Source of the DNA: Micromonospora sp. CCTCC AA 2012012
GTDB lineage: Bacteria > Actinomycetota > Actinomycetes > Mycobacteriales > Micromonosporaceae
Length of the DNA: 64,000 nucleotides
Assembly (NCBI RefSeq): GCF_040499845.1
Contig: NZ_CP159342.1
Span: forward strand, 1,674,001-1,738,000
Direction: 5' to 3'
Shown here: positions 25,246 through 34,843 of the stretch, one piece after another
How positions within the stretch are numbered: the first letter of the stretch is position 1
Layout: each line of letters starts with the position of its first letter
Translations under genes and position numbers: made by a program
The notes under the pieces: model-generated
What the model was told of the DNA's origin: nothing
The model's database searches: none
The model's input: only the letters and a program-made list of their open reading frames with translations

Positions 25246-25956
25246 GTGACGTACCGCGAACCCGACAAGGCGATGGACCGGCTGGTCGACGACCGGACGA
25301 TCCTCCAGGTCGTCGTGGGGTCCCACGCGTTCGGTCTGGCCGGTCCCGGCTCGGACACCGACCGGCGCGGGGTGTACGCGCTGCCGGCCGCCGCCTTCTG
25401 GGGCCTGACCAAACCGGCGAAGCACCACGAGGGCCCCCAGCCGGAGCAGTTGCGCTGGGAGGTGGAGCGGGTCTGCGTCCTCGGCCTGGCGGCGAACCCG
25501 AACGTGCTGGAGGTGCTGCACTCTCCGCTGGTGGAGATCTGCACGCCGGTCGGCGACGAGTTGCGGGCGCTCGCCCCGGCGTTCCTGTCCCGGCGGGTGG
25601 CCGACACCTATCTGGGCTACGCCGCCGCCCAGTTCGCCAAGGCCGAGCGGGGTGTCGCCCGGTCCGGTACGCCGACGTGGCGGCACGTCGTACACCTGAT
25701 CCGGCTGCTCACCGCGGGCGGGCACCTGGTGCGGACGGGGGAGTTGGTGCTGGACGTGGGCGCGGACCGGGACCGGCTGCTCGCGGTCAAGGCCGGTCGG
25801 CTGCCGTGGACGGAGGTCGCCGCCTGGCGGGACCGCCTGGTGGCCGAGCTGGTGCGGGACCTGGACGCCAGCCCGCTTCCCGACCATCCCGACGAGGCCC
25901 GGGTGGACCAGTGGTTGATCTCGGTACGACGCCGCTCGGTGGAGGAGATGGCATGA
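25246..25956 (+). CDS. minimal nucleotidyltransferase, first of a pair
   Basis: 236 residues. Polymerase-beta-type fold signature near the N-terminus: VVGSHAFGLAGPGSDTDRRGVY, the GS followed by D-x-D metal ligands. The rest is helical (LIRLLTAGGHLVRTGELVLDV), as in the YcgL/RlaP-like nucleotidyltransferases linked to RNA repair. Its stop overlaps the start of a second related gene (ATGA). The nucleotide and acceptor are unknown. Confidence 0.85.
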   Translation: MTYREPDKAMDRLVDDRTILQVVVGSHAFGLAGPGSDTDRRGVYALPAAAFWGLTKPAKHHEGPQPEQLRWEVERVCVLGLAANPNVLEVLHSPLVEICTPVGDELRALAPAFLSRRVADTYLGYAAAQFAKAERGVARSGTPTWRHVVHLIRLLTAGGHLVRTGELVLDVGADRDRLLAVKAGRLPWTEVAAWRDRLVAELVRDLDASPLPDHPDEARVDQWLISVRRRSVEEMA

Positions 25957-26738
25957 ACGCGCTCGACGCGGCCGGGCTGCCGGCCCGTCTCGACCTGACG
26001 GCGGTGGTCGCGGAGCAGCCGTACCCGATGGTCTTCGCCACGGTCTCCGGCGCCCACCTGTACGGCTTTCCGTCCGTCGACTCCGACGTGGACCTGCGCG
26101 GCGTCCACCTGTTGCCGGTCGCGCAGCTGATCGGGCTCGGCGAGCCGGCGGAGACCCGGATGGTGATGGCGGACCGCGACGACGTCGAGATGGACCTCGT
26201 CACGCACGACCTGCGCAAGTTCGTCCGGCTGATGCTGCGGCGCAACGGGTACGTGCTGGAACAGCTCCTGTCGCCGCTGGTGGTGCAGAGCACGCCGACG
26301 CACGCGGCGCTGGTCGAGTTGGCACCGCGCGTGCTCACCCGGCACCACGGCCACCACTACCGGGGTTTCGCCGCCACCCAGCGGCGACTCTTCGACACCA
26401 CCGGGCAGCTCAAACCGCTGCTCTACACCTTCCGCGCCCTGTTGACCGGCATCCATTTGCTGCGGACCGGGCAGGTGCAGGCGCACCTGCCGACGCTGCT
26501 GGCGGCCGAACCCGCCCCGGCCTACCTGCCGGAGTTGATCGCGGCGAAGCGTACGGCGGAACACGGCGATCTGGGCGATCTGGTCTCCCGCGACGTCCTC
26601 GACCGGGACCTGCGGGACCTGGCCGAGCGGCTCGACCAGGCACAGCAGGACAGCCGACTGCCCGAGCAGCCGTCCGCGACGCCGCAGCTCGACGCCCTGG
26701 TCGTCGACGCCCGGCTGGCAACGCTCGCGTCCCGTTAG
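25953..26738 (+). CDS. minimal nucleotidyltransferase, second of a pair
   Basis: 261 residues from ATG 25953, overlapping the previous stop, with GGAGGAG upstream. Same family: ATVSGAHLYGFPSVDSDVDLRGVHLLP, with S-x-SDVD metal ligands, then EMDLVTHDLRKFVRLMLRRNGYVLEQLLSPLVV and a helical half. The two proteins are paralogues of different length and may act as a heterodimer or on related substrates. It is followed convergently by the GAF-ANTAR gene 10 bases away. Confidence 0.85.
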   Translation: MNALDAAGLPARLDLTAVVAEQPYPMVFATVSGAHLYGFPSVDSDVDLRGVHLLPVAQLIGLGEPAETRMVMADRDDVEMDLVTHDLRKFVRLMLRRNGYVLEQLLSPLVVQSTPTHAALVELAPRVLTRHHGHHYRGFAATQRRLFDTTGQLKPLLYTFRALLTGIHLLRTGQVQAHLPTLLAAEPAPAYLPELIAAKRTAEHGDLGDLVSRDVLDRDLRDLAERLDQAQQDSRLPEQPSATPQLDALVVDARLATLASR

Positions 26739-26748
26739 AAGCCGCCGG

Positions 26749-27504
26749 TCAGGGCTGCTGGCGGGGGTTCACGAATCCGGGCGCGGGCCGCGGGGACTCC
26801 CCGGTGACCTGGGTGATGATCTCCGTGGCCACGTCGCGCAGTTTGCGGTTGCGGTGCTGCGACGCCTGCCGCAGCAGGGTGAACGCCTCCGTCGCGGTGC
26901 ACCGCTGCTGACCCATCAGCACCCCGAGCGCCTGGTCGATGATGCTGCGGGAGGCCATCGCGTCGGCGAGCTGCTGCTGCAGGAGCGCCTGCTCGGCCTG
27001 CCGGAGGATGACGGCCAGCGCAGCCGCCGCCTGGTCGGCGAAGGCGACGGCCTGCCGGTGTGTCGTGCCGGTGAAGGCGGCGGGCCGGGTGGCGTACAGG
27101 TTCAACGCGCCGACCGTCTCCCGCTCGACCGTCATCGGCAGCGACAGCGAGCTGACCGCGCCGAGCCGCAGCGCGTGGTCCCGGTAGCGGGGCCAGCGGC
27201 CGTCGGTGCCCAGGTCGACGACCTCGACGACCCGGCCCCGGCGCAGTGCTTCGAGGCAGGGCCCTTCGTCGGCCCCGTACTGGACCTCGTCGCCCCGCGC
27301 GGCCAGCTCGCCGCTGCTGGCGACGGTGAACGCGCCGCTCTCGCGGCGCACGGTCAGCCCGCACGCCTCGGCGGGGGCGACGACCTCCGTCGCGACCCGG
27401 ACCACCTGGTCGAGGAAGACGTCGACCTGCGGTGAGTCGGCCAGCAGGACCAACAGACTGCTGTACGCCGAGGCGAAATGCGACTGCGCGGTATGGGAGA
27501 CCAC
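26749..27504 (-). CDS. GAF-ANTAR antitermination regulator
   Basis: 251 residues from GTG 27504, with GGGGAGG 5 nt before. Residues 20-165 are a GAF domain (GADEGPCLEALRRGRVVEVVDL...SSLSLPMTVERETVGALNLY); 185-240 an ANTAR RNA-binding helix bundle (RSIIDQALGVLMGQQRCTATEAFTLLRQASQHRNRKLRDVATEIITQV). Such proteins bind paired RNA hairpins and prevent transcription termination in response to a ligand or redox signal. Divergent from a STAS-domain gene, a common pairing in actinobacterial stress signalling. Confidence 0.92.
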   Translation of the reverse strand: MVSHTAQSHFASAYSSLLVLLADSPQVDVFLDQVVRVATEVVAPAEACGLTVRRESGAFTVASSGELAARGDEVQYGADEGPCLEALRRGRVVEVVDLGTDGRWPRYRDHALRLGAVSSLSLPMTVERETVGALNLYATRPAAFTGTTHRQAVAFADQAAAALAVILRQAEQALLQQQLADAMASRSIIDQALGVLMGQQRCTATEAFTLLRQASQHRNRKLRDVATEIITQVTGESPRPAPGFVNPRQQP

Positions 27505-27744
27505 TGCCACCTCCCCGGAAGTGGATGTCCGTTTCGTTGCCGGTGACGCGTTGACCCGCCTCGTCACCGGCAGGTCGGCGGAGTTCATCGCCGACGCGTA
27601 CGCGCCCGCGACGAGAGGGGTGCGGATCGGGCCGTACCCGGCTAAGGTCGGGGTGGGTTCGGACATGAGCCCAGGACCAGTGCCGCCCGCAGCCAGCGGG
27701 CCGAGCGCCGACCCGGTCCCGACATCCTCGCCGAGGAGCTGCTC

Positions 27745-28107
27745 ATGTCTGTCCATCAGGCACCACCCTGTGCGGTGCGGGAAGTCATCAGACCGTCGCT
27801 GCTGTCCCTCGCGCTCGCCGACGAGGGCGCGGCGACCGTGGTGAAGGCGCACGGCCCGCTGGACATGGACACCGCCGGCCTGCTCGTCGACCTCGTGGAC
27901 AGCGTGCTGGCGGGCCAACCGCCGCCGGTGCTGGTGCTCGACCTCAGCGGGGTGGACTTCTTCTGCGCGGCCGGGGTCACGGCGCTGCTGACGGCGCGCC
28001 AGCGGGTCGCCTCGAGCGGGCGCGCACTGGTGGTGCGCACGCCGTCCCGGATCATCGTCGCCGTACTCGAACTGGTCGGCCTGGAGCAGGAGTTCGCCAC
28101 CGACTGA
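27745..28107 (+). CDS. STAS-domain protein lacking the phospho-serine
   Basis: 120 residues, ATG 27745 with GAGGAG 7 nt before. STAS fold of anti-sigma-factor antagonists (VVKAHGPLDMDTAGLLVDLV...VLVLDLSGVDFFCAAGVTALLTARQRVASSG). The loop that normally reads DSSG, with the phosphorylated Ser, reads CAAG here. It therefore cannot be switched by the usual RsbW-type kinase and may be constitutively active or sense something through the Cys. Confidence 0.88.
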   Translation: MSVHQAPPCAVREVIRPSLLSLALADEGAATVVKAHGPLDMDTAGLLVDLVDSVLAGQPPPVLVLDLSGVDFFCAAGVTALLTARQRVASSGRALVVRTPSRIIVAVLELVGLEQEFATD

Positions 28108-28238: not shown

Positions 28239-29168
28239 ATGCGGACCAAGCAGGAGCTGGGCGCGGCCATCCGGCGGGACCGACGGGCGGCGCTCGTCGT
28301 CAACGCCCACTCCCGGCGCGGGCGCCGGCTCTACGAGGGTGCCCGGTCCCGGCTGCTGGCGGCCGGCTTCACCCTGCTCGGCAGCTGTCCCGTCGACCGG
28401 CCCGCCGAGCTGGAGCAGCGCCTCGCCGAGGCCGCCGACCTCCGGCCGGACCTGCTGGTCGCGGGCGGCGGCGACGGCACCATCGGCACCGCCGCGCGGC
28501 TGCTCGCCCACCGGGACGTCGCGCTCGGCCTGCTGCCGCTCGGCACCACCAACAACTTCGCCCGCACCGTGGGCATCCCGCTCGACCTGGACGCCGCCGT
28601 CGCGGTCCTCACCGACGGCACGGTGATCGACGTCGACCTCGGCCTCGTCGGCGACCTGCGCTTCACCAACCACGTCGGGATCGGCCTCTCCGCCGACGTG
28701 ATGCTCGCCGCGCCGCCGCGACTCAAACGGGTCGCCGGACGGCTCGCGTACCCGCTGACCGCGCTGGGGCTGCTGCGCCGGCACCGTCCGCTGCGGGTCA
28801 CCGTCCGCGCCGAGGGGCGCGACCACGACTTCGCCACCCACCAGGTGTACGTGGCCAACGGCGGCTTCCACGCCGGCCGGCCGATCACCGCCGACGCGAA
28901 CGCCGACGACCGGCTGCTGGTCGCGTACCCGGTGGGTGGCCCGACCCGGCGCGGGCTGCTGCGCGAGACGGCCCGCAACGCGGCCGGGGGCCGCCGCCGC
29001 ACCCTGCGCGAGGAGCCGTTCCTCGCCGTGCGGCACCTCTGGGTGGAGACCGACCCGCCGGCGCGCGTCGAGGTCGACGGCGAGCCCTACGGCGAGACCC
29101 CGATCCGGATCGGGCTGGACCCGAACGCGCTGCGGATCATGGCCGCCGCCGGCAGCCCCGACCACTGA
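28239..29168 (+). CDS. diacylglycerol/lipid kinase-like protein
   Basis: 309 residues. DAGK catalytic fold: ALVVNAHSRRGRRLYEGARSRLLAAGF, the nucleotide loop VAGGGDGTIGTAARLL (about 77-82), LPLGTTNNFARTVGIPLDLDAAV, then FTNHVGIGLSADVM and the C-terminal barrel with HLWVETDPPARVEVDGEPYG. Members phosphorylate diacylglycerol or other lipid alcohols at the membrane face. The substrate is not known, and it stands as a single leaderless gene. Confidence 0.9.
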   Translation: MRTKQELGAAIRRDRRAALVVNAHSRRGRRLYEGARSRLLAAGFTLLGSCPVDRPAELEQRLAEAADLRPDLLVAGGGDGTIGTAARLLAHRDVALGLLPLGTTNNFARTVGIPLDLDAAVAVLTDGTVIDVDLGLVGDLRFTNHVGIGLSADVMLAAPPRLKRVAGRLAYPLTALGLLRRHRPLRVTVRAEGRDHDFATHQVYVANGGFHAGRPITADANADDRLLVAYPVGGPTRRGLLRETARNAAGGRRRTLREEPFLAVRHLWVETDPPARVEVDGEPYGETPIRIGLDPNALRIMAAAGSPDH

Positions 29169-29246
29169 CGGGCACCGCCACGCGGCAGAGGCGATCTTCG
29201 ATGAAGGCCGCACACCACGAGAATCACCTCCGACCCACCGGGCCGA

Positions 29247-29252
29247 TAACGT
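29247..29252 (+). promoter_or_regulatory. -10 box TAACGT, leaderless start at 29259
   Basis: TAACGT 6 nt before ATG 29259, no ribosome binding site. Confidence 0.5.
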
Positions 29253-29258
29253 ACTGTC

Positions 29259-30041
29259 ATGCTTCAGTACGCGAGAGTAACCAGCCGGTGGGGTCACGCG
29301 GTGCGCTACCGGGTGCTGGACACCGTCGCGGTGCGCACCACCGACGGCACCTGGCGCGAAGCGCCGACAGCCAAGCAGCGCAGCCTGCTGGCGAGCCTGC
29401 TGATGCGCAGCAACGAGTGGGTCACCGCCGGCCGGTTGACGGAGCTGCTCTGGGCCGAGCATCCGCCCCGCTCGGCACCGGGCAACCTCAAGACCTACGT
29501 GTGGCGGCTGCGCACCCTGCTCGTCGAGGCCGGACACGGCAGCGACCGGCTGGAGAGCCGGCCCGGTGGCTACCGGCTGCGCGTCGAGCCCGGCGAACTG
29601 GACCTGCACGTCTTCCACGGCCTCGTCGACCAGGGCCGACAGGCGCTGGCGGCCGGTGACCCGGCGGACGCCGGCCGGCTGCTCGCCGCCGCCCTGTCGC
29701 TGGGACCGGCCGAACCGGTCGAGAGCAGACCGGAGGCGATGTCCGCGGCGGACCGGGCGCACCTGCACGAGCTGCTGCGCGGCACCCAGGCCGTGTTGAT
29801 CGAGGCGGAGCTGGCGGCCGGCCACCCGGACGGCACGATCACCCTGCTCCGCCGCCTCGTCGCGGATCAGCCGTTGGCCGAACAGTGGTGGGCGATGCTG
29901 ATCCGGGCTCTCGCCCTGGCCGGCCGGCGGGCCGAGGCGATCACCGCGTACCAGCGGGCCTGCCGGCTGCTCGACCGTGAGCTGGGCCTGACCCCCGGCG
30001 CGCTGCTGCGCGACGCGTACGGGCGGGTCCTCGTCGGGTGA
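29259..30041 (+). CDS. small SARP-like (winged helix-BTAD) regulator
   Basis: 260 residues. An OmpR-like winged helix (RYRVLDTVAVRTTDGTWREAPTAKQRSLLASLLMRSNEWVTAGRLTELLW...LESRPGGYRLRV) followed by a BTAD domain (LDLHVFHGLVDQGRQAL...AITAYQRACRLLDRELGLTPG). There is no ATPase domain, so it is the small SARP class. It converges on the peptide-associated TPR gene and shares a terminator with it, making it the best candidate activator of that locus; a target box was not found. Confidence 0.87.
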   Translation: MLQYARVTSRWGHAVRYRVLDTVAVRTTDGTWREAPTAKQRSLLASLLMRSNEWVTAGRLTELLWAEHPPRSAPGNLKTYVWRLRTLLVEAGHGSDRLESRPGGYRLRVEPGELDLHVFHGLVDQGRQALAAGDPADAGRLLAAALSLGPAEPVESRPEAMSAADRAHLHELLRGTQAVLIEAELAAGHPDGTITLLRRLVADQPLAEQWWAMLIRALALAGRRAEAITAYQRACRLLDRELGLTPGALLRDAYGRVLVG

Positions 30042-30058
30042 CCGGCGGGCCGGTCACC
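30037..30058. terminator. bidirectional hairpin overlapping two stop codons
   Basis: GGTGACCGGC (30037-30046) pairs with GCCGGTCACC (30049-30058). The dyad contains the SARP-like stop and the end of the convergent TPR gene. In RNA the top pairs would open to form the loop. Confidence 0.6.
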
Positions 30059-32135
30059 GACCGGCGGCCACCCCCAGGGCTCGGGCGCACTCGGTCCGCT
30101 CGCGGCGGATCTCCTCGTCGGTCGGGTCCAGCTCGGCCGCCCGGGCCAGGTCGGCCAGGGCGTCGTCGTACCGGCCCAGCGCCCGGTAGGCGGTGGCCCG
30201 GTTGTACCGCAGCGCCGCGTCGTCGCCGACGGCCAGCGCCCGGTCCAGGTGGTCGACGGCTGCCGACGGATCGCCCGCGTCGAAGGCCAGCGCGGCCAGA
30301 CCCGACCAGGCGGCGGTCGAGCCCCCGTCCACCTCCAGCGCCCGCCGGTACGACCGCTCCGCCTCGGCGGTCCGGCCCTCCTCGGCCTGCACCTGGCCGA
30401 GCAGGCACAGCAGGTGCGGGTTCTCCCCGTCCAGGGCCAGCCCGGCGTCCAGATCGGCGCGCAGCGCCGCCCCGTCGTCCAGGACGGCGTACAGGCCGGC
30501 CCGGTTGACCAGCGCGTCCACATTGGTCGGGTCGATCTCCAGCACATAGCTCAGATCGGCCAGCGCGGCGTCGAGGTCGCCCAGGCCGGCCAGCACGTCG
30601 GCCCGGTTGTAGTGCGCCTCCGGGAACGGCGGACCGAGCCGGATGGCCTCCGCGTAACCGGCCAGTGCCTCCTCGTCGCGGCCCAGCCGGTGCAACAGGT
30701 TCGCCCGGTCGAAGTGGTACTCGGGATGGTTGCGGTCGTCCGCGATCACCGCGGTGAAGTCGGCCAGCGCCTCGTCCAGCCGGCCCAGCGCGGCCAGCAC
30801 CTGGGCCCGGTTGTGCAGCAGCACCGAGCGGTGCAGCCGGTGCTCGTCCGCGCCCAGCTCCTCGTCGAGCCGGGCCAGGCCGGTGGCGACCAGCTCCAGC
30901 GCGCCGGGCAGGTTGCCCAGGTGCATCTCGATCAGGGCCAGCCCGTTCTGCTGGAAGACCGTGGAGAAGCTGCGGTCGGCGCCCTCCGGCTGGAGGCTGG
31001 AGATCGCGATCGCCTGGTTGATCCAGGCCCGGGCGCGCACGTGGTCCCGGTGGTCCGGGTCCCGGTGCCGGGTGTAGATCATCGCGGTGGCGTACGCGGC
31101 CTGGCGGTGGATGATCGGGTTGACGCTCAGCGAGCGGGCCTCGTCGTACAGCTCCTCGGCCTCCTCGGGCCGGCCCAGCGCCGACAGCGAGGTGGTCATC
31201 TTGGTGGTGAACGCCCACCACGCGCCCTCCCGGGCGGCCCGGTCGACGACCGCCCGGCCACGCCGGCCCAGGTCCAGGGTGGCGTGATAGAAGCCCATGT
31301 CCACGCAGTAGTTCAGCGCCTCCAGCAGCGCCCGGGCACCCGCCTCGGCCGGGTCGCCGGCCCGCTCCAGGTGGTACGGCACCGCGCCCAGCTTCGGCGA
31401 CCGCAGCCCGGTGGCGAGCAGCTGCTCGGCCCGCTCGGCGTGCAGCCGGCACCGGGCGGCGGGGTCCAGCTCGGCGTAGGCGGCCAGCAGGGCCGGGTCG
31501 TCGGCGCAGCAGTCGGAGGCCACGTAGGCCCGGGCCGGGTCGGCCGGCGGCGCACCGGGGGAGGGCACCGGCGGTGCGTCGCGCCGCTGGGCGTACCGGG
31601 CCAGGTCGGCGGCCAGGTTTTCGTCGAGCGGTCCGGTACCGGTGCCGACGACCACGGTGAGCAGGTCGGGATCGAGCCGGCGCAGCAGCACCGAGACGAA
31701 CTCGGCGTCGGTCGGGTCGGCCTCGTCCAGGCGGTCCAGCACCAGGACGCGGCGCGGGCCGCCCAGCGCGCGGACGTGGTCGCGGAGCAGCTCGGCGAGG
31801 CCGTGGGAGAGCCGCAGCGTACGCACCCGGGAGTAGAACCGGGTCCGTTCGGCCGGCACCGCCAGGGAGGTGAGCGTCTCCCGGGAGGCGGGCACCAGCG
31901 GCCGCAGGTCCGGGGCGACGGAGAGCACCTCGATGTCGTGCCTGCGCACCAGCTCCGGCGTACGCGCCAGCATCTCCGGCACGAGCGCGGTGAGGAGCGC
32001 GTTCGCCCCGGTGTACGGCCCGAACCGGCGTCGGTGCGCGTCGACCGGCTCCGCCAGCGGCACGGCGGTCAGGGCGCGGGCAGCGGCCAGGCGCTGGTAC
32101 GCATGGTCGCCGGTGATCCACAGGTGCTGCGCCAT
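30054..32135 (-). CDS. TPR protein with degenerate NTPase head
   Basis: 693 residues from ATG 32135, with AGGAG 8 nt before; the open frame beyond is a shadow of the peptidase. Residues 1-190 look like a STAND-type ATPase head (RRFGPYTGANALLTALVPEML, then VLVLDRLDEADPTDAEFVSVLLRRL as Walker B), but no GxxxxGK[ST] loop is visible. Residues 280-690 hold about nine TPR units (LGRLDEALADFTAVIADDRNHPEYHFDRANLLHRLGRDEEALAGYAEAIRLG and on). It starts 14 nt after the M50 peptidase stop, so it belongs to the peptide operon. It is probably a scaffold or chaperone that brings peptide and enzyme together. Confidence 0.85.
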   Translation of the reverse strand: MAQHLWITGDHAYQRLAAARALTAVPLAEPVDAHRRRFGPYTGANALLTALVPEMLARTPELVRRHDIEVLSVAPDLRPLVPASRETLTSLAVPAERTRFYSRVRTLRLSHGLAELLRDHVRALGGPRRVLVLDRLDEADPTDAEFVSVLLRRLDPDLLTVVVGTGTGPLDENLAADLARYAQRRDAPPVPSPGAPPADPARAYVASDCCADDPALLAAYAELDPAARCRLHAERAEQLLATGLRSPKLGAVPYHLERAGDPAEAGARALLEALNYCVDMGFYHATLDLGRRGRAVVDRAAREGAWWAFTTKMTTSLSALGRPEEAEELYDEARSLSVNPIIHRQAAYATAMIYTRHRDPDHRDHVRARAWINQAIAISSLQPEGADRSFSTVFQQNGLALIEMHLGNLPGALELVATGLARLDEELGADEHRLHRSVLLHNRAQVLAALGRLDEALADFTAVIADDRNHPEYHFDRANLLHRLGRDEEALAGYAEAIRLGPPFPEAHYNRADVLAGLGDLDAALADLSYVLEIDPTNVDALVNRAGLYAVLDDGAALRADLDAGLALDGENPHLLCLLGQVQAEEGRTAEAERSYRRALEVDGGSTAAWSGLAALAFDAGDPSAAVDHLDRALAVGDDAALRYNRATAYRALGRYDDALADLARAAELDPTDEEIRRERTECARALGVAAGR

Positions 32136-32149
32136 CGTGCGCGCTCCTC

Positions 32150-33361
32150 TCACTGGGCCAGGTGACGGACGTCGGCGGCGGAGCGCCGCTGTCGACGGTT
32201 GCGCAGCATCAGCACGCCGACCAGGACGAGCTGACCGACGGTGACGGTGAGGAAGATCAGGGCGTCGACGATCCCGGTGCCGCCGTGGCTCTGCCGCACC
32301 AGCCGGGTGGCGGCCATGCCGATGGTGCGCACCGTGGTCGGCAGCACCGCCAGCGCCAGCACACCGAGCGAGACTCCGTACCCGATGAGCAGGAGCCAGG
32401 AATACCAGCGGGCCACCGCGCGGTCCCGCGGGTGCAGCCCGGACTCGTCGACCGGGGTACGCCCGACCAGCCGCCGGGCCCGGTTGCCGAGCACCCGACG
32501 GGCCGCGCCCTGCAGGTCGTGGCAGCCGAGCACGGTGGTGACCACCCCGTAGAGGTCGGTGCGCAGATAGAAGGCGAACTGCCAGGCGAAGCGGAGCAGG
32601 GTCAGGAACGCCAGGGCCAGACAGAAACCGCCCAGCCGCGACGGCGTGCCGTCCGGGCGGAGGGCGGCCGCGGCAACCAGCGTGAGCACCGAGATCAGCA
32701 GCAGGTCGGCCAGCATGCCGGCGAGCATCGGCAGGTATCGCTGCCGGCGCGGCACCACGACCAGACCGTCCAGGCTGGTCTCGAAGGTGAGGAAGTGCAG
32801 TCGGTGGCTGATCCGGAGGGTGGAGCGCAGCCCCAGCCGGCGCCCGGCCAGGGCGTGGAAGCTCTCGTGCACCAGGATCAGCGGGATCTGCCCGAGGAAC
32901 ACCGTCAAGGCCAGCGCCGTCACGTAGTCCGTGTAGAAGAGGTTGTCGGTCTGCGGGGCCAGCCGGGGCCGGGCCACCATCGCGGCGACCGCGCCGGCGA
33001 TCAGCAGCGCGTACAGGATCCAGGCCGGCGGGGAGAAGAGCCACCGGCCCAGCCGCTGCCAGCGCAGCGGCGCGACGGTGGTGGCCGGCGGGACGTCACC
33101 GACCAGGAAGTCCAGCTCCTCCAGGACGCCCAGGAACTCGGCCAGGTCGACCTGTTCGCCGTAGGTCTCGGCGTACCAGTCGGCGGCCTCGGCCGGTGGC
33201 ATCCCGTCGGCGATCCGCCGGAGCAGTTCCGCACCGTCGGGCGGGAAGACCCCGAAGGACTCGACATCGGTACGACCCACCACGACGTCGTCCCCGTCGG
33301 GCAGGTAGGTCAGCGGATACACGCGCAGCGGCTGGTGCAGCGTGGACGGTACGGTCGTCAT
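32150..33361 (-). CDS. RRE-like domain fused to M50 membrane metallopeptidase
   Basis: 403 residues. Residues 10-90 (YLPDGDDVVVGRTDVESFGVFPPDGAELLRRIADGMPPAEAADWYAETYG...FLGVLEELDFL) have the length and pattern of a PqqD/RRE winged helix, which binds RiPP leader peptides. Membrane segments lie at about 113-130, 145-170, 208-233, 243-265, 320-341 and 365-387. The second holds HESFH (165-169), the zinc HExxH; RTDLYGV (Asp269) fits the third zinc ligand of M50 enzymes. It follows a 29-residue peptide gene, so cleavage or export of that peptide in the membrane is the natural guess. YydH of the Bacillus epipeptide system is a comparable M50 protein. Confidence 0.88.
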   Translation of the reverse strand: MTTVPSTLHQPLRVYPLTYLPDGDDVVVGRTDVESFGVFPPDGAELLRRIADGMPPAEAADWYAETYGEQVDLAEFLGVLEELDFLVGDVPPATTVAPLRWQRLGRWLFSPPAWILYALLIAGAVAAMVARPRLAPQTDNLFYTDYVTALALTVFLGQIPLILVHESFHALAGRRLGLRSTLRISHRLHFLTFETSLDGLVVVPRRQRYLPMLAGMLADLLLISVLTLVAAAALRPDGTPSRLGGFCLALAFLTLLRFAWQFAFYLRTDLYGVVTTVLGCHDLQGAARRVLGNRARRLVGRTPVDESGLHPRDRAVARWYSWLLLIGYGVSLGVLALAVLPTTVRTIGMAATRLVRQSHGGTGIVDALIFLTVTVGQLVLVGVLMLRNRRQRRSAADVRHLAQ

Positions 33362-33394
33362 GGTGGCCTTCCCCCGGTGGTGGGGCCGGGGCCC

Positions 33395-33435
33395 GGACCG
33401 GTGTGACGGTCCAGGCCCCGGTGTGACGGTCCCGC
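33395..33435 (-). promoter_or_regulatory. repeated CCGGTGTGACGGTCC element between peptide and peptidase genes
   Basis: A 15-base direct repeat starts at about 33398 and again at about 33418. The first copy also forms a small hairpin (GGACCG/CGGTCC, 6-nt loop). In the 78-base gap after the peptide stop it could cause partial termination or protect the short upstream message, giving more peptide than peptidase. Confidence 0.45.
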
Positions 33436-33439
33436 CGGC

Positions 33440-33529
33440 TCAGAACGGCCAGCAGAGCGGGTTGTCGTAGAACGTGGCGGCGGTGGTCAGCCGGACGGTG
33501 CCCGGCTTGCGCACGACGATCTTCTTCAT
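33440..33529 (-). CDS. 29-residue peptide, candidate RiPP precursor
   Basis: Starts at ATG 33529 behind a strong GGAGGGAGG and ends at TGA 33440. The first half, MKKIVVRKPGTVRLT, is basic and beta-strand-like, as expected of a leader that docks onto an RRE. The second half, TAATFYDNPLCWPF, is aromatic, with a single Cys and a C-terminal Pro-Phe. It is too short to be noticed by ordinary gene finders. It heads an operon with an RRE/M50 membrane peptidase and a TPR protein. No radical SAM, lanthionine, YcaO or ABC transporter gene is near, so any modification is unknown; the mature product may simply be a cleaved peptide. Confidence 0.75.
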   Translation of the reverse strand: MKKIVVRKPGTVRLTTAATFYDNPLCWPF

Positions 33530-33685
33530 CTCGTTCCTCCCTCCGGGGGTGTGAGGTCCTACCGCAGAACCTGCCACCCGCCGGTCCACCCGCCGTCCAC
33601 CGTCGGTGTTTCCGCCGGTCACCGGCGCCGAGGACCACGGCGCCGGGCGGCGCTATGGTGAACCCGCTGGGAAGGGGAGGCCGCC

Positions 33686-34843
33686 ATGACCGGTTCGCTG
33701 GACGGGGTGCTCGTCGCCGACTTCAGCCGGGTCCTCGCCGGGCCGTACGCCACCATGCTCCTGGCCGACCTCGGCGCCGACGTGGTCAAGGTCGAACGGC
33801 CCGGCGCCGGTGACGACACCCGCGCCTGGGGCCCGCCGTACGACGCCGACGGCACCGCCACCTACCACCTGGCCGTCAACCGCAACAAGCGCTCCGTCGC
33901 GCTGGACCTGACCGATCCCGACCACCTGGCCGCCGCCCGCGAACTGGTCCGCCGGGCGGACGTGGTCGTGCAGAACTTCCGCCCCGGCACGATGGAACGC
34001 CACGGCCTCGGCCACGCCGACGTCGCCGCCGTCAACCCCCGCGCCGTCTACTGCTCGATCACCGGCTTCGGCGCCGGGCCCGGCGCCGACCTCCCCGGAT
34101 ACGACCTGCTCGTCCAGGCCGTCGGGGGGCTGATGAGCGTCACCGGAGCGCGGCCGGGCGAACCGGTCAAGGCGGGCGTCGCGGTGGTCGACGTGATCAC
34201 CGGCCTGCACGCCACGGTCGGCATCCTGGCCGCGCTACGCCACCGCGAGGTCACCGGCGTCGGTCAGCACGTCGAGGTCAACCTGCTCTCGTCGCTGCTG
34301 TCCGCCCTGGTCAACCAGGCGTCCGGCTATGTCAGCGCCGGCGTGGTGCCGGGCATCCTGGGCAACGCCCACCCCAGCATCGTGCCGTACGAGCTGCTGC
34401 CCACCGCCGACCGTCCGCTGGCGGTGGCGGTCGGCACCGACGCCCAGTTCCGCGCCCTGTGCCAGGCGCTCGACCTGCCCGCCGTCGCGACGGATCCGCG
34501 CCACGCCACCAACGCCGACCGGGTACGCCACCGCGCCGGGCTGATCGCCGTGTTGTCCGAGCGGACCGCGCGGTGGCCCGCCGACGACCTGGCCGCGACG
34601 CTCAGCGGGCTCGGGGTGCCGTGCGGGCCGGTCAACGACCTGGCCGGGGCGTTCCGGCTCGCCACCGACCTGGGGTTGACGCCGGTCGTGGACGTCCCCG
34701 GGCCGGACCGGCCGCACCCGGCCCGTCAGGTCGCCAACCCGATCACCCTGTCGGCGACGCCCGCCACCTACCACCGGCCACCACCCCGGCTCGGCGAGCA
34801 CACCACCGAAGTCCTCACCTGGCTGGGGCGGCAGCCGTCCTGA
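33686..34843 (+). CDS. CaiB/BaiF family III CoA-transferase
   Basis: 385 residues, ATG 33686 with GGGAAGGGGAGG upstream. Family III pattern: VLVADFSRVLAGPYATMLLADLGADVVKVERP at the start, NRNKRSVALDL, NFRPGTMERHGL, and PGYDLLVQAVGGLMSVTG, whose Asp forms the acyl anhydride intermediate. It moves CoA between carboxylic acids; the acids cannot be told. Divergent from the peptide operon across 156 bases, with no sign of sharing a role. Confidence 0.93.
   Translation: MTGSLDGVLVADFSRVLAGPYATMLLADLGADVVKVERPGAGDDTRAWGPPYDADGTATYHLAVNRNKRSVALDLTDPDHLAAARELVRRADVVVQNFRPGTMERHGLGHADVAAVNPRAVYCSITGFGAGPGADLPGYDLLVQAVGGLMSVTGARPGEPVKAGVAVVDVITGLHATVGILAALRHREVTGVGQHVEVNLLSSLLSALVNQASGYVSAGVVPGILGNAHPSIVPYELLPTADRPLAVAVGTDAQFRALCQALDLPAVATDPRHATNADRVRHRAGLIAVLSERTARWPADDLAATLSGLGVPCGPVNDLAGAFRLATDLGLTPVVDVPGPDRPHPARQVANPITLSATPATYHRPPPRLGEHTTEVLTWLGRQPS

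Follow-up and report, generated by a model that had tools for sequence, protein, structure and literature searches.

Closest described systems

The hallmark of epipeptides is a radical SAM epimerase encoded beside the precursor. In these systems (YydF/YydG/YydH, EpeP), an M50 protease matures a small peptide (PMC10885120). Daptide loci encode MpaP, an intramembrane site-2 protease that carries an RRE fused to its N-terminus (PMC10036551). Rgg/SHP systems and ComRS, working with Eep, combine a short peptide, a membrane zinc protease and a TPR protein (PMC7564271). Biphenomycin BipC, a RiPP arginase, and the putative arginase PbsE are annotated as, or contain, tetratricopeptide repeats, which gives them a likeness to the TPR protein considered here by description alone (PMC12707348, PMC12257519).

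The locus described here is from Micromonospora sp. CCTCC AA 2012012 (GCF_040499845.1, contig NZ_CP159342.1, positions 1,674,001-1,738,000); this whole stretch of 64,000 nt is the window, and its numbering is used throughout. The locus encodes a 29-residue peptide, an RRE-M50 peptidase and a TPR protein, and appears to belong to a family of small ribosomal peptides, so far undescribed, whose variable end always carries a Tyr-Cys pair. The literature covered, chiefly open-access papers, yielded no description of this trio. An original prediction had proposed that the trio forms a real locus, which we confirm, and that the lack of a modifying enzyme or ABC transporter sets it apart from known RiPP classes. 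That interpretation is partly supported; the RRE-protease fusion has a precedent in daptide MpaP (PMC10036551).

The fusion of an RRE to a site-2 protease and the several small precursors per locus are shared with daptides (PMC10036551). However, the daptide leader motif ELExMEAP (PMC10036551) is absent here, and the last residue of the window tail is not Thr. Daptide genes (oxidative decarboxylation, aminotransferase, methyltransferase) and an ABC transporter were not found among 12 scanned window neighbours, which lie between 24.7 and 40.0 kb and do not include the ORF at 26749-27918. The daptide model NF041824 matched 2 of 73 peptidase relatives (best E 3.5e-4) and left the window protein unmatched. 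Daptide membership thus failed on the leader, the C-terminal Thr and the neighbouring genes. Epipeptides share an M50 protease and a small peptide with the locus (PMC10885120), and the YydH/LiaK model NF058609 matched 6 of the 73 relatives (best E 0.004). Epimerase and precursor features were compared by description, and epipeptide membership was rejected on the absence of a radical SAM gene among the 12 scanned neighbours. Pearlin pathways likewise use M50 enzymes, TglG and TmoG, to free a product from a ribosomal scaffold (PMC10885120), but no PEARL enzyme occurs among the same 12 neighbours, and pearlin membership was rejected on the absence of this ligase. These neighbours also showed no exporter, no immunity gene and no enzyme known to modify RiPPs, which counts against a RiPP-like reading of the locus.

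A short peptide, a membrane zinc protease and a TPR protein are what the trio has in common with Rgg/SHP and ComRS (PMC7564271), whereas the trio's protease has an RRE, its TPR protein is without a visible HTH, and its host belongs to the Actinomycetota. RRNPP receptors, which have an N-terminal HTH and a peptide-binding TPR region, were rejected as a match because no HTH was found among 25 of the 26 Pfam families of the TPR protein, whose head is AAA_16-like. RRNPP propeptides, in which an N-terminal basic region precedes a hydrophobic secretion segment, were also rejected: the window peptide is without a hydrophobic run (best 12-residue hydropathy mean 0.45). Usual S2P substrates, unlike the window peptide, contain such a run.

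Gene organization and conservation

The precursor peptide gene (29 aa; 33440..33529, minus strand) was assigned by reading the sequence and from the family motif, omega and Tyr+Cys tails, and its ribosome binding site, GGAGGGAGG, was read at 33536..33544 on the same strand. Downstream, also on the minus strand, are the genes for the peptidase (403 aa; 32150..33361) and the TPR protein (693 aa; 30054..32135). A convergent neighbour on the plus strand (29259..30041) encodes a SARP-type regulator (Trans_reg_C and BTAD in a Pfam scan).

The trio co-occurs in many soil actinobacteria. Our close-relative sample comprises 64 distinct loci in 43 distinct neighbourhoods; L055, L135 and L218 are a single contig and were counted once, which reduced the totals from 65 and 44, respectively. 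A small ORF with the leader motif MKKI.[VI]RK.G.[VI]RLT lies upstream of the peptidase in 64 of 64 loci, and the TPR gene, with its head, lies downstream in all 64. The leader pattern first matched 55 of 56, the exception, L133, carrying MKVIKIRKAGPVRLTSPACTTYHAPG. The conserved small ORF that the original prediction anticipated beside homologous peptidases is therefore present, and the absence that would have spoken against it was not found.

Contrary to what had been supposed, the peptidase is not always present beside the precursor. Two 300-genome searches placed close M50 proteins and the TPR head in the same 32 genomes, and 5 further genomes were TPR-only. In peptidase-free relatives, homologous precursors that keep the leader directly precede the TPR gene, and one such sister unit consists of a homologous peptide (MKKM...WIEWCW) and a TPR protein. 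These units indicate that the precursor has its constant partner in the TPR protein rather than in the peptidase, and that the RRE alone cannot account for the conserved N-terminal half of the precursor. No recognisable precursor was found at the TPR-only loci G116 and G170.

Accessory genes, taken from clusters common to at least 3 of 44 neighbourhoods (some of them Pfam-checked), occur at 20 of the 43 distinct neighbourhoods: flavin reductase at 13, OYE at 4 and a B12-radical-SAM type at 3, with one member of this last cluster Pfam-checked. The proposed absence of a modifying enzyme thus holds for the window copy and not for the family. SARP-related regulators are found at 12 of the 43 neighbourhoods and were not seen at 31.

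Features of the peptide, the RNA and the proteins

The precursor consists of a conserved N-terminal half, MKKIVVRKPGTVRLT, and a tail, TAATFYDNPLCWPF, that carries the Tyr/Cys pair. Coding selection acts on the ORF, with an omega of about 0.14 for the leader. At least six precursor copies are present at five loci, and in tandem arrays the leader is constant and the tails are varied. Tyr and Cys occur close together in 74 of 74 precursor tails, a count that includes the tails of L041 and L045, added by hand. The pair is also present in 27 of 27 dissimilar tails, a level reached by none of 20000 shuffles. The spacing is 1-6, and both orders occur (46 versus 28 of the 74 tails), which is awkward for one defined linkage.

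The gap between the precursor and peptidase genes contains a stem-loop with a 15-bp stem and a 6-nt loop (33386..33421, minus strand; intergenic fold z -2.87). In the family, the mean z of 62 distinct intergenic regions is -2.90, versus -0.88 for 61 upstream controls; L041 and L045, which the leader pattern did not catch, are omitted from this count. No terminator-type U-run was found after the window stem-loop, an Rfam scan of 29000-34000 gave no match at E <= 1, and a scan of 29900-33800 detected no sigma-70 promoter.

In the predicted model of the peptidase, residues 10-89 (33095..33334, minus strand) form a bbb-aaa winged helix like those of characterised RREs and align with lasso-peptide RREs, so the proposed RRE-like domain is upheld and the misfold that would have contradicted it was not seen. 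Residues about 145-345 align with site-2 proteases, and the predicted site-2-protease fold contains HExxH and a distal Asp, as expected for the M50 membrane peptidase originally proposed. The zinc motif HESFH (residues 165-169; 32855..32869, minus strand) and Asp269 in RTDLY (32555..32557, minus strand), which is likely the third zinc ligand, are conserved such that His165, Glu166, His169 and Asp269 are unchanged in 73 of 73 relatives. The window protein scores 11.7 bits against a PF02163 gathering score of 27.2 bits, and is therefore a divergent M50 relative rather than a Pfam member. Its profile had no matches among PDB sequences up to E 10, and PADLOC did not match it.

The TPR protein has a degenerate AAA_16/STAND-like head and a predicted TPR superhelix with Asn at 442, 510, 544 and 645. 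The earlier description of the head as a degenerate NTPase agrees with our results: the Walker A P-loop expected of a STAND/AAA_16 ATPase is found in 0 of 50 (first 200 residues). A PDB comparison of the TPR model bears hardly at all on the head. Family comparison and the model mark a nearly invariant stretch in the head, ETLTSLAxPxERTRFYSRxRT (residues 86-106; 31818..31880, minus strand), in which residues 91-96 have pLDDT < 50. The stretch resembles the precursor in an LTS.A.P pattern, with no clean correlation with peptidase presence. PADLOC gave one weak match in the TPR repeats (PrimPol, E 0.00099). At E <= 0.001, a protein database contained 1195 peptidase relatives and 520 TPR relatives, distant ones included; among the 120 listed per protein, names include hypothetical protein, peptide zinc metalloprotease, PqqD family and tetratricopeptide repeat protein.

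Possible functions

We somewhat favour the reading of the trio as an unnamed RiPP-like family, in which the site-2 protease would receive the peptide from the RRE fused to it and the TPR protein would assist or perform a modification. The conserved N-terminal half of the precursor would be a leader, bound by the RRE and handed to the protease, which may cut near the LTxxA/Tyr boundary and yield a tail, about 8-20 residues long and containing Tyr and Cys, that could be exported. The TPR protein would hold the peptide in an Asn-lined groove and, either as a helper or as the enzyme itself, modify it around the aromatic-Cys pair; in some relatives, tailoring by flavin or radical-SAM enzymes might follow. 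One effect of the stem-loop could be to keep precursor mRNA in excess of enzyme mRNA. In favour of this reading we counted the gene association, the predicted RRE and S2P folds with their invariant zinc residues, the selection on the leader, the tandem arrays, the Tyr/Cys pair, the stem-loops, the redox accessory genes and the tail distances given below. We counted against this RiPP-like reading that the peptide has no hydrophobic run and that peptidase-free relatives keep the leader. The trio offers a clean, testable family of one short substrate, one RRE-protease and one TPR protein, and if the TPR protein is a maturase, then RiPP mining by known modifying enzymes overlooks a class.

The main rival is a signalling unit like SHP/ComS-Eep-Rgg, in which the M50-type protease would trim the MKK... 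peptide and the TPR protein would be an intracellular receptor acting via the SARP. This would give actinobacteria a peptide-signalling route built like Eep/Rgg, but it seems unlikely: the TPR protein has a degenerate NTPase head instead of a visible DNA-binding domain, the peptide is without a hydrophobic export segment, most neighbourhoods show no SARP, and the redox genes and invariant Tyr/Cys pair point to chemistry. Actinobacterial signals are, moreover, described as typically small molecules (PMC10075063). It is quite doubtful that the small peptide and the pseudo-STAND TPR protein are the defining unit, with the TPR protein as a so far unrecognised enzyme that links or alters the nearby Cys and an aromatic residue, which is Tyr here and Trp in the sister, and the RRE-site-2 protease as an exchangeable release module; if so, this RiPP class would rely on a fold that no peptide-modifying enzyme is known to have. 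The protease-free sister unit makes the two roles separable experimentally.

That the peptide is a scaffold for a small Tyr/Cys-derived compound, pearlin- or PQQ-like, with variable tails discarded, we consider very unlikely. Tyr and Cys do stay constant while downstream tails vary freely in tandem copies, and TglG and TmoG release a C-terminal residue (PMC10885120), but the variable spacing and order of the pair argue against it, and no PEARL-like gene was recognised among the 12 window neighbours scanned or in the gene clusters common to at least 3 of 44 neighbourhoods, some of which were Pfam-checked. Finally, the short ORF just upstream, its Cys/Trp/Tyr codons near the end and the stem-loop in the gap could suggest an attenuator or arrest peptide with an RNA switch regulating the downstream genes. 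The multiple tandem copies, the conserved N-terminal protein sequence and a window stem-loop that has neither a terminator-like U-run nor an Rfam match make this regulatory leader highly improbable.

Distance matrices bear on the binding partners in the favoured RiPP-like reading. RRE-leader co-variation is unsupported by this test, as leader and RRE distances show no RRE-specific signal when the S2P part is controlled for (partial r -0.006), and leader distances were not seen to follow TPR distances with M50 controlled for. Tail distances track both M50 distances (r 0.73) and TPR distances (r 0.68).

Organization of the trio in the window

Three ORFs on the minus strand make up the trio: a 29-codon precursor peptide ORF (33440-33529), a 403-aa ORF for an M50 site-2-protease-type peptidase fused to an RRE (32150-33361), and a 693-aa ORF for a TPR protein with a degenerate AAA_16/STAND-like head (30054-32135). 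The precursor and peptidase are 78 bases apart, and the peptidase and TPR genes 14 bases. A SARP-type regulator with Pfam domains Trans_reg_C and BTAD (29259-30041) is convergent with the trio. It is one of 12 genes between 24.7 and 40.0 kb that were scanned with Pfam; the remainder correspond to CoA transferase, YjbR, two RlaP, STAS, DAGK, L,D-transpeptidase, DLH, RraA-like, glutamate-synthase-like and MDMPI families. Nothing recognisable as a transporter, radical SAM enzyme, P450, YcaO protein or lanthionine enzyme was seen among these 12, with ORF 26749-27918 and some short ORFs lying outside the scan. The two RlaP (RNA repair polymerase beta) genes are adjacent, at 25246-26738.

The region from the precursor stop to about 20 bases beyond the peptidase start folds stably, with a mean z of -2.90 over 62 distinct sequences (46 below -2), versus -0.88 (12 of 61) in stretches of the same length taken from upstream of the precursor (Mann-Whitney p 5e-13). 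Stem sequences vary between loci. The window stem has 15 pairs (33386-33421), and this stem-loop has no U-run. Stem-loops that separate a precursor gene from the genes of its enzymes are usually read as stabilisers or partial terminators.

Conservation of the small ORF

The original prediction relied on a small ORF that should recur beside homologous peptidases, and it does. Among close loci, in which the peptidase reaches at least 200 bits when compared with the window protein (41% identity or more; window included, one duplicate contig dropped), all 64 distinct loci have an ORF with the conserved N-terminal leader pattern upstream and a TPR head downstream. None of the 17 loci with a more distant peptidase (best-segment identity 34% or less) has this TPR head. 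Most close loci (59) have a single precursor copy in the 1450 bases that were searched; two copies occur at one locus, six at three loci and seven at two. One genome (G085) yields twelve precursor-profile matches at E up to 0.08.

Single-nucleotide codon differences among 71 distinct DNA leaders are synonymous in 7737 cases and non-synonymous in 3000, against an expected 2.75 non-synonymous possibilities per synonymous one. The resulting omega of ~0.14 is only a rough figure, because leader pairs are not independent. This pattern of conservation marks the small ORF as a gene. When 250 genomes of the window's family were searched in six frames with the precursor profile, 28 gave matches at E 1.1e-8 or better, each with a peptidase nearby or, in the case of G274, a fragment of one at the end of a contig. 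Most of the weaker matches (E 8e-5 to 0.1), which are sited elsewhere, probably arise by chance; loci were taken from two of these genomes, G101 and G293, and G101 is described below.

Peptidase distribution is patchy. In the window's family, 32 of 300 genomes have a close relative (E <1e-80), and a second family has close relatives at E 1e-90 in 25 of 341 genomes. Across the class, 17 of 394 genomes have a relative of any kind at E 1e-20. One peptidase-TPR pair (L222; NZ_CP109482.1, Streptomyces sp. NBC_01450) is plasmid-borne, with several transposase genes on each side.

Tyr and Cys in the precursor tails

The variable tails, taken as 74 unique sequences after the [IV][RK]L[TK] motif (two of them entered by hand), all contain both Tyr and Cys, with a nearest separation of 1 to 6 residues. 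Cys follows Tyr in 46 and precedes it in 28; the L133 tail also conforms (CTTY). Among 27 mutually dissimilar tails all have both residues, whereas 20000 pooled-letter shuffles gave a mean of 16.4 and a maximum of 24. Separation is at most 5 in all 27, versus 20.2 expected when each tail is self-shuffled (reached in 2 of 2000), but separation of at most 3 is ordinary (15 observed, 15.6 expected).

Accessory genes

We considered gene clusters found in at least three of 44 neighbourhoods (43 distinct, five peptidase-free). The TPR cluster occurs in 43, and the peptidase cluster in 36 as a separate gene, some gene calls having fused the peptidase with other frames. Flavin-reductase-like genes are present in 13 (one on the opposite strand; Flavin_Reduct in two members checked with Pfam), SARP regulators in 12, OYE-like genes in 4 (Oxidored_FMN in one member) and, ahead of the precursor and peptidase genes, a B12-rSAM-type gene in 3 (Radical_SAM and a sub-threshold B12-binding match in one member). 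No two of the three redox gene types share a locus among the 43 distinct neighbourhoods, so 20 of 43 carry one. The proposed absence of a modifying enzyme thus holds for the window copy, with none among its 12 scanned neighbours, but not for the family. At the window locus and at L057, a near relative of it, the SARP is the sole accessory.

Precursors at two B12-rSAM-type loci, L208 and L209, have long proline-rich tails. L070 also carries this gene, and precursors at L041/L070 and L045/L209 have long tails ending PPIPWPY.

TPR proteins without the peptidase

Two 300-genome searches found the close peptidase and the TPR head in the same 32 genomes, and the TPR head without a close peptidase in five more (G095, G101, G116, G166 and G170). 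In G101, a precursor, MKKLQVHKVGPMRLTGAAIGCYTTPSCSCDENGF, that obeys the Tyr/Cys rule lies directly before the TPR gene, which is followed by an OYE-cluster gene. G116 and G170 lack both a peptidase and a recognisable precursor. At L204 and L205, TPR proteins lacking both adjoin proteins of 956-997 aa that by eye resemble AAA_16 proteins.

Starting from G166 and G095, a peptidase-free, two-gene sister unit was traced in 20 of 330 Micromonosporaceae genomes (E <1e-128; L206, L207, L223-L242). Its peptide, M[KR][KR]M.[VI]R[RH]...[LV]RL.SGARRLW[IMF]EWCW, is present in 19 of 19 loci with readable upstream sequence (the contig start truncates L237). Single changes among 13 distinct DNA copies are synonymous in 418 cases and non-synonymous in 166. 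The tail is nearly fixed, and its aromatic residue is Trp. One such genome, G140, has no peptidase match at E 1e-3, and therefore no close relative acts from elsewhere in it. On this comparative evidence, the peptidase is dispensable to the peptide-TPR unit.

Possible function and classification

An aromatic-Cys pair persists even where its order flips or Trp replaces Tyr, which suggests that these two residues undergo chemistry, and the redox accessory genes agree with such putative chemistry. The components are consistent with an RRE-guided site-2 protease that would act on the short precursor, an arrangement also proposed for daptides (PMC10036551). The TPR protein probably also reads the leader, since leaders stay conserved at loci that lack an adjacent RRE-peptidase. 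BipC offers a precedent for TPR proteins as hidden RiPP enzymes (PMC12707348, PMC12257519). A nearly invariant TPR-head stretch, LTSLAxP (31818-31880 of the window), resembles the precursor's LTSAAQP before Tyr and is a possible pseudo-substrate.

Across 48 loci, tail distances track peptidase (r 0.73) and TPR (0.68) distances, with partial correlations of 0.37 and 0.16. Leader distances show no partial correlation with those of the RRE, which is short and noisy (-0.006, protease domain controlled for), or of the TPR protein (0.019, peptidase controlled for). This distance test does not favour the predicted recognition of the peptide by the RRE. Alternatively, the trio might be a signalling unit like SHP/ComS-Eep-Rgg, with the TPR protein as receptor acting through the SARP; the parallel with Eep/Rgg (PMC7564271) and the nearby SARP regulators speak for this reading, which we nevertheless consider rather unlikely.

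We call the trio a variant of RiPP-like systems, because modification is putative and the RRE-protease fusion has precedent. The peptide-plus-TPR unit could be its own class. None of the known classes tested matches the trio by defining features.

Distant M50 branches

The window's genome has a second, distant M50 gene (L077; G000:C1:2283000-2301000), ~33% identical, adjoining a ThiF-cluster gene. Among 20 distant loci, which include L077 and L081-L096, this cluster (one member Pfam-checked) lies near the M50 in 13. At L089 a tiny peptide, MKIEIKKIENTRLTGCQIAGKLCDS, directly precedes the M50. In another branch (L009, L012, L019, L021, L086 and L105), peptides of the form MKKL.VR[RK]LE.[IV]KTSA...C have a single Cys and no Tyr; at L078-L080, a nearby gene appears CRP-like by eye.
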